A stretch of DNA of 64,000 bases, from positions 310,001-374,000 of the forward strand of contig NZ_CP032096.1 in assembly GCF_004786015.1 (NCBI RefSeq), written 5' to 3'. The position numbers and the translations under genes were made by a program. Positions 15,972 to 17,081 of the stretch are shown in pieces (within the stretch, counting starts at the first letter, position 1; the number at the start of each line of letters is the position of its first letter). The notes beneath the pieces were generated by a model that did not search any database, was not told the DNA's origin, and saw only the letters and a list, made by a program, of their open reading frames with translations. The stretch comes from Hydrogenovibrio crunogenus (GTDB taxonomy: Bacteria; Pseudomonadota; Gammaproteobacteria; Thiomicrospirales; Thiomicrospiraceae).

Positions 15972-16242
15972 ATTTATATTTCAGTCATTTATCGTTAGCG
16001 TATGATAACGAAAACATACCAGAGTTTCATTATCCTAAAAATTAAGTTTCAAAAAAGAGGCTGACATAATCAGCGCAGAAGCATTACTGTAGAGGTCTCA
16101 ATGGTTTCTTAAAGGTTTCTTAATGACTGCTATAAAAAAATAAAATACCTAAGTAGTTGATGTTACTTTAAAAAGAAGTAGAATAGTTTGCAAGTAACGA
16201 AAACAATGTTTAATTGTTGTTACCGGTATTAGACAGAAAATT
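15972..16242 (+). promoter_or_regulatory. Promoter region upstream of the tandem riboswitch
   Basis: This is the space between the divergent bioA start and the first aptamer. On the plus strand, TTGATG (16157-16162), a 16-bp spacer and TAGAAT (16179-16184) make a candidate sigma-70 promoter that would start transcripts about 50 nt before the first aptamer. The rest is AT-rich with no coding signal. Confidence 0.45.
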
Positions 16243-16312
16243 TTGCCAAACTTGTTGTGAAGCAAGGACGGAAAGCCATGGGTCTCAAGGTTTGAGATCG
16301 CCAGGTTGCCAA
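16243..16312 (+). ncRNA. Cyclic di-GMP-I riboswitch aptamer, copy 1
   Basis: The element starts at GCCAAAC (16245). It has a hairpin CTTGTT-GTGA-AGCAAG with a GNRA tetraloop, the core GGACGGAAAGCC, the second hairpin GGTCTCAA...TTGAGATC and the closing CGCCAGGTTGCC. This order and these conserved bases match the GEMM-I/c-di-GMP-I class (typical core GGACGCAAAGCC). The position that in characterised aptamers separates c-di-GMP from cGAMP binding (G versus A after GGAC) is G, pointing to c-di-GMP. One base after it differs from the usual C. Confidence 0.85.
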
Positions 16313-16419
16313 ATTGATTAGAAAATGCGTTTCTTGGCATTTGTATGATTGATTTGTTCCCATTTTTCCGGCCGTGGATTACAACAGGTATTCCTTTTCT
16401 TTCTAATGAAAGTTTTTAA

Positions 16420-16487
16420 TTGCCAAACTTGTTGTGAAGCAGGGACGGAAAGCCATGGGTCTCAATGTTTGAGATCGCCAGGTTGCA
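16420..16487 (+). ncRNA. Cyclic di-GMP-I riboswitch aptamer, copy 2
   Basis: This copy repeats 63 of 65 core bases of the first, 177 bases downstream. The two changes are structurally neutral: one turns an A-U pair of the first hairpin into G-U (AGCAAG to AGCAGG), and the other is in the loop of the second hairpin. Tandem aptamers of this class are known and sharpen the response to c-di-GMP. It ends about 60 bases before the start codon of the downstream gene. Confidence 0.85.
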
Positions 16488-16524
16488 AACCAGTACTTTC
16501 TACCACTCTTCAACACACGTTTCG

Positions 16525-16543
16525 CTTGAGTTCTCTCAAGGAG
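16525..16543 (+). promoter_or_regulatory. Hairpin sequestering the Shine-Dalgarno sequence
   Basis: The perfect hairpin CTTGAG-TTCT-CTCAAG (16525-16540) contains the first half of the Shine-Dalgarno AAGGAG (16538-16543), which lies 6 bases before the ATG at 16550. No U-tract follows, so this looks like a translational expression platform rather than a terminator. Confidence 0.55.
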
Positions 16544-16549
16544 ATGAAG

Positions 16550-17004
16550 ATGTTGTTTGTAAAAAAATAAACCGTCAGGCTCGACTGACGGTCGCTTGTA
16601 TTAGCTTAATGACAATGGGGGCGCCCGATGCATTGGCTGATACAAAAGATAATCTTGGTGTTCAATTACTGCAGACATTTCATGCGGTAAGTGGGTCTTT
16701 AAAAAACATGTTTGAAGTAGAAGCGAAGGTTAACCTTCGTACGCTAAATAGCTCTGCTTATTCCGTTGAGATAGAGCAGCCTTATTGTTGTCAGGCTCGG
16801 AAAAGCGTAACGGTTGTTGATTTTTTGCGCTTTGGAAATGATAAATCAAATATTGTTATGGGGTTTAACCTGGTCGATAGCAATTTATTGATTTCTAAAG
16901 GGGAACAATGGCAAATGTCATTGGGTGTTAAAGAAGCGAAAACCAAGCTGTATGGTTCCGATGATATGGGGGTCATGCTACGTTTTCAAGCTTCCCTTCA
17001 TTAG
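16550..17004 (+). pseudogene. Riboswitch-controlled small exported protein, frame interrupted at an A7 run
   Basis: From the ATG at 16550, ideally spaced from AAGGAG, the frame reads M-L-F-V-K-K and hits TAA at 16568. The -1 frame, entered across the run of seven A (16561-16567, slippery form A AAA AAA), continues for 145 codons to TAG at 17002. The joined 151-aa product has a perfect signal peptide (KK...RLTVACISLMTMGAPDALA, then D) and a mature part of beta-rich character with a CC pair near residue 83. No family was recognised. It could be a programmed frameshift, transcriptional slippage, a phase-variable or true frameshift mutation, or a sequence error. A long frame beginning at 16465 starts inside the aptamer and is not a credible gene start. 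Confidence 0.65.
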
Positions 17005-17044: not shown

Positions 17045-17081
17045 AAAACGGTCATTATGAAGTTGTGTAATTGACCGTTTC
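17045..17081. terminator. Bidirectional terminator between the riboswitch gene and truC
   Basis: The nine-bp arms AAACGGTCA (17046-17054) and TGACCGTTT (17072-17080) enclose a 17-nt loop that contains the truC stop codon. A- and T-rich ends on both sides allow function in either direction for these convergent genes. Confidence 0.6.

Follow-up and report, generated by a model that had tools for sequence, protein, structure and literature searches.

Among the closest described counterparts of the locus analysed here is inlA of Listeria monocytogenes, a surface protein gene with an A tract in its first codons. A tract of seven A's keeps inlA in frame, a tract of six leads to a stop after residue 8, and reversion from A6 to A7 occurs at about 5.5 × 10−7 (PMC2831843). 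A second group of described systems uses A_AAA_AAA as a site of −1 frameshifting. In IS3-family elements and in dnaX this heptamer is read in a defined phase and followed by a hairpin; these conserved sites are located towards the end of a long zero frame and give two useful products (PMC4066793, PMC5009743). In Buchnera, poly(A) frame breaks are rescued by RNA polymerase slippage, and the runs that a review names for bacterial slippage comprise nine residues (PMC2831843, PMC5009743). More than one c-di-GMP-I aptamer in a single 5′ leader has been described for the triple riboswitch Bc3-5 of Bacillus thuringiensis (PMC4759541).

The locus described here lies in a 64,000-nt stretch of the Hydrogenovibrio crunogenus genome (hereafter the window) and shares features with each of these systems. 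As in inlA, an A tract occupies the first codons of a gene for a probably exported protein, and a tract one base short leads to an early stop, here after residue 6. Unlike inlA, for which a strain series and a measured reversion are available, this locus is represented by a single sequence and lies behind riboswitches. The heptamer, its phase and a downstream hairpin are those of the IS3-family and dnaX sites, but the site is at codons 5–6, the hairpin is closer than usual and no conservation was seen. As in Buchnera, polymerase slippage could yield some correct mRNA, although the run has only seven A's. Compared with Bc3-5, there are two aptamers, the gene is an unrelated orphan and it is out of frame.

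Leader and start region

Both tandem c-di-GMP-I aptamers passed the gathering score of the RF01051 covariance model, and they are 96% identical to each other over 70 nt (Table 1). The Shine-Dalgarno (SD) sequence is wholly enclosed in a hairpin, with a pairing probability of about 0.99 over the SD. This suggests control at the level of translation, with the hairpin as the presumed expression platform.

Two ATG codons of the same frame are located 3′ of the SD, at 16544 (no spacer) and 16550 (6-nt spacer). The frame opened at 16550 reads ATG TTG TTT GTA AAA AAA TAA, with the stop codon at 16568–16570. The A7 heptamer is in the exact zero-frame X_XXZ_ZZN phase of a frameshift site, the stop is the next codon, and the initiation SD sits 17 nt upstream of the tract. 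A −1 slip would cause the two Lys codons to be re-read, followed by ATA AAC CGT and so on; this reading comprises MLFVKK plus 145 codons from the ATA at 16567, 151 aa in all, and ends with a TAG stop at 17002–17004. The homopolymer at codons 4–6 with an early stop at codon 7 also corresponds to an inlA-type contingency arrangement. The first-pass annotation had described a riboswitch, an SD and ATG opening a six-codon frame that ends in TAA, and an uninterrupted 151-aa product after a −1 shift on the A7 tract; the aptamer matches and the re-read sequence agree with all three statements.

Table 1. Features of the leader, the start region and the orphan gene (positions in the window)
Feature	Position	Strand	Basis or remark
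First c-di-GMP-I aptamer	16235..16313	+	Rfam RF01051, 62.7 bits (gathering 35)
Second c-di-GMP-I aptamer	16412..16490	+	Rfam RF01051, 58.7 bits (gathering 35)
SD-enclosing hairpin, 12 bp, one bulge, loop TTCT	16518..16546	+	Presumed translational expression platform
Shine-Dalgarno sequence AAGGAG	16538..16543	+	Sequence
Zero-frame short ORF MLFVKK, stop TAA	16550..16570	+	Sequence
A7 tract, A_AAA_AAA in slip phase	16561..16567	+	Sequence
−1 frame, remainder of the 151-aa probably exported orphan protein	16567..17004	+	Open, coding-like; signal peptide by eye
8-bp hairpin, 3 nt after A7	16571..16592	+	Possible frameshift stimulator; also minus-strand terminator match

Coding potential of the −1 frame

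Coding potential was assessed with a three-periodic Markov model; the training set was 241 long ORFs from a 464-kb sample of this genome, which included 20 stretches of 20 kb. Downstream of the A7 tract, the −1 frame scored +14.9 nats; the other forward frames scored −89 and −99 nats, and the reverse-strand frames at the locus −52 to −66 nats. The stretch preceding the ATG was neutral in the model, and 16464–16560 is not coding-like. By codon usage the −1 frame was again the best of six, but its score lay near the bottom of the range for real genes. Of 2000 shuffled sequences, 12 contained an open frame of 145 codons or more. The −1 frame is thus probably a gene, of unusual composition, and no other inactivating change was found in it. 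Since the frame after A7 is coding-like and 16464–16560 is not, the good SD and ATG open the wrong frame, one base away from the coding one.

The N terminus, MLFVKKINRQAR-LTVACISLMTMGA-PDALA, resembles a signal peptide when judged by eye, and the 151-aa protein is probably exported. Of the textbook signal peptide claimed in the first-pass annotation, an apparent signal peptide at the N terminus is retained on inspection by eye. Single-sequence structure prediction of the 151-aa protein gave a mean pLDDT of 32.7 and no usable fold. A perfect 16-nt palindrome, CGAAGGTTAACCTTCG, is present within the coding frame at 16724–16739.

The least probable of the readings considered is that the open −1 frame is no gene at all and that nothing but a short peptide or an RNA is under the control of the leader. 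The lack of a homologue, the 12 shuffles with a frame this long, the low codon score and the dense inverted repeats would fit such a reading, but it is opposed by the strong frame-specific coding signal, by a plausible signal peptide precisely where the protein begins, and by the good SD and ATG.

The −1 frame is also open upstream as far as an ATG at 16465. An in-frame start at this codon was rejected: the codon is part of the second aptamer, lacks an SD and would place the non-coding-like 16464–16560 region within the gene. A separate start further downstream is very improbable. Re-initiation could take place at an AUA overlapping the UAA stop (AUAA, 16567–16570), an arrangement with the same geometry as the common AUGA overlap and with a permitted though rare start codon (table 11), or the gene could start at one of the in-frame ATGs at 16609 and 16615. 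However, AUA is a very weak start codon, and re-initiation there is a weaker possibility than recoding at the A7 tract. The two ATGs have no SD, and starting at either would cost the signal peptide its charged part and most of its core.

Distribution of the orphan gene

No convincing homologue was found in 192 relatives, 369 genomes of the class and GTDB contigs, nor in viral contigs, plasmids, phages, Pfam, NCBIfam, PHROGs and the PDB. In nine congeneric species bioA and rluA lie close together, with about 150 nt or less between them, and none of these nine junctions holds the aptamers or the orphan gene. In the window the gap between bioA and rluA is 1083 nt. As no homologue was found and the insert of about 1 kb is missing from the nine congeneric species, the orphan gene is, on these comparisons, lineage-specific; consequently, the conservation and history of the A7 tract cannot be read from homologues. 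Orphan status and absence of the insert from congeners are what one would expect of a dispensable gene acquired recently. A scan of GTDB contigs with rluA for a closer strain did not reach XCL-2, the nearest sequenced strain (ANI 87.7%).

An inverted repeat, AAACGGTCA/TGACCGTTT, was identified by reading at 17046–17080 and could be a terminator shared with the convergent rluA.

A tracts and frame breaks in the genome

In the 464-kb sample, 12 of the 359 coding-like ORFs carry an A7 tract within 30 nt of the start, compared with about 3.6 expected if the tracts were evenly spread. Several genes with an early A7 have the tract in a Lys-rich N terminus. The same 5′ bias of A tracts appears in a published survey of 99 genomes (PMC2831843). 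With 12 of 359 ORFs sharing it, a 5′ A7 by itself is unremarkable in this genome.

The frame was kept at all 80 tracts of seven or more A's inside coding sequence, in a test that needs coding sequence for 150 nt to either side of the tract and is blind to breaks in the first codons. The single frame change flagged at such a tract was an ordinary overlap of two genes, and those flagged at other A/T runs were all ordinary gene junctions. Because the sampled in-gene tracts all keep the frame, true breaks are rare, and the frame break at this locus is unusual.

Downstream hairpin and possible programmed recoding

The hairpin following the A7 tract spans 22 nt, with a free energy of −13.3 kcal/mol. 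Hairpins of equal strength occurred at 4 of 400 randomly chosen places and beside none of the window's other 27 A7 runs (both strands), making this the strongest hairpin beside any of the 28 runs. The region 16520–16660 is more structured than shuffled sequences (z = −5.95), as are the 120-nt intervals starting at 16500 (z = −3.3) and 16560 (z = −4.4). On the minus strand, 16570–16593 (the hairpin with the complement of A7) is a good match to an intrinsic terminator, with no obvious transcript to stop.

Programmed −1 frameshifting at A_AAA_AAA could draw on this hairpin, and perhaps on the upstream SD, to produce the exported protein in a set proportion, with the riboswitch controlling initiation on top. 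The exact slip phase, the stop as the next codon, the rarity of the hairpin and the local structure all point in this direction. A_AAA_AAA is also a common frameshift motif of insertion sequences (PMC4066793), and an A7 cassette from another gene gave 10% frameshifting (PMC3711429). Nevertheless, we consider such frameshifting unlikely. The 3-nt distance between hairpin and tract is shorter than the usual 5–8 nt (PMC4066793), the hairpin can also be explained as a minus-strand terminator, and early A7 tracts are common in this genome. A shift at codon 5–6 also leaves no useful zero-frame product. Conservation is the criterion that separates programmed shifts from errors and indels (PMC3711429), and no homologue was found in which a conserved frame transition could be seen.

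The fuller proposal of two-layer control, in which c-di-GMP riboswitches would gate initiation and a −1 frameshift at codons 5–6 would set the amount of exported protein, is distinctly unlikely. Recoding combined with a riboswitch was the headline of the first-pass annotation; its riboswitch was borne out, but comparative support was lacking, as no homologue was detectable. The exact slip phase and the downstream hairpin leave recoding a small probability. The alternatives listed there (recoding, phase variation, recent mutation and sequencing error) were the correct ones. Were recoding to operate, riboswitch control and frameshifting would be united in one natural leader; the ligand-controlled frameshift device that turned up in a literature search is engineered (PMC4267651).

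Transcriptional slippage driven by a sense-strand stem-loop is disfavoured: the hairpin lies 3′ of the A run and would not yet be present in the nascent RNA while the run is transcribed. Whatever the cause of the frame break, a small leak of full-length protein through spontaneous −1 slipping at A_AAA_AAA is likely, and it need not be functional.

Origin of the frame break

We favour a one-base length change in the 5′ A tract that took a lineage-specific gene out of frame, and give it about an even chance of being correct. On this view the gene is genuine and lineage-specific; it encodes a probably exported protein of some 150 aa, follows the two tandem c-di-GMP-I aptamers and is probably gated at translation by the SD hairpin. 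The A tract at codons 4–6 would be of the wrong length by one base, most likely through a replication-slippage indel, for which 5′ A tracts are a known hot spot. The gene would now be in an OFF state that yields a six-residue peptide, and we infer that reversion is possible in principle.

This explanation is preferred because it needs nothing new and has a near-exact precedent in inlA. For orphan singletons, frame transitions are expected to be mostly gene overlaps, sequencing errors or indels (PMC3711429), and an indel or an assembly error explains the frame break with fewer assumptions than recoding. Several points argue against an indel: the A-tract evidence comes from one sequence; the gene is free of any further inactivating change; the sampled in-gene tracts were all in frame, making true breaks rare; and both the exact slip phase and the hairpin would have to be coincidence. 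If the indel is real, this would be another 5′ A tract silencing a gene for an exported, presumably c-di-GMP-regulated protein, and the host is a free-living vent bacterium, not a pathogen.

The main rival to the indel is a residual assembly error, which we regard as somewhat unlikely. The true tract would then be longer by one A (or shorter by two), leaving the gene intact and normally translated. The errors left in PacBio assemblies after polishing with Illumina reads are typically bases lost from homopolymers, and the gene is otherwise intact. The genome has the same length (2,453,259 bp) as the assembly of Hydrogenovibrio sp. SP-41, which was obtained from PacBio RSII reads with Canu and then corrected using Pilon and MiSeq reads of an enrichment culture; Pilon made 192 corrections, mostly of single bases (PMC6501319). 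However, coverage was 503× and the Illumina polishing was run with -fix all (PMC6501319). Moreover, all 80 in-gene tracts of seven or more A's in the 464 kb were in frame, which limits the error rate to a few per cent per tract at most. An assembly error at this position would call for caution in the annotation of this genome.

Other c-di-GMP-I riboswitches

Several congeneric species carry a c-di-GMP-I riboswitch beside prfC (L019 1501–1819, G000:C1:1071404 on; also L008, L009, L011, L014 and L022). It is followed by a conserved peptide of 46–49 aa whose N terminus is basic and which has one apparent membrane span, e.g. MKLKRRENIFRTQKKSHFKTITFFVVAMMVLVSYVYSVDPTVIDML. A second c-di-GMP-I riboswitch is common to several congeners (L026 from 1501; L010, L012, L013, L017, L018 and L020). 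No conserved ORF was found 3′ of it, but a conserved block, TTCAGAGTGCAAC, is present, and in L010 and L012 the riboswitch is followed by a strong terminator-like hairpin. This second riboswitch possibly controls a c-di-GMP-dependent small RNA. In G022, a genome of the same family, a c-di-GMP-I riboswitch (L021 1501 on, reverse strand) lies ahead of a 228-aa protein that seems to carry a signal peptide, apparently another exported protein under a c-di-GMP-I switch in this family.
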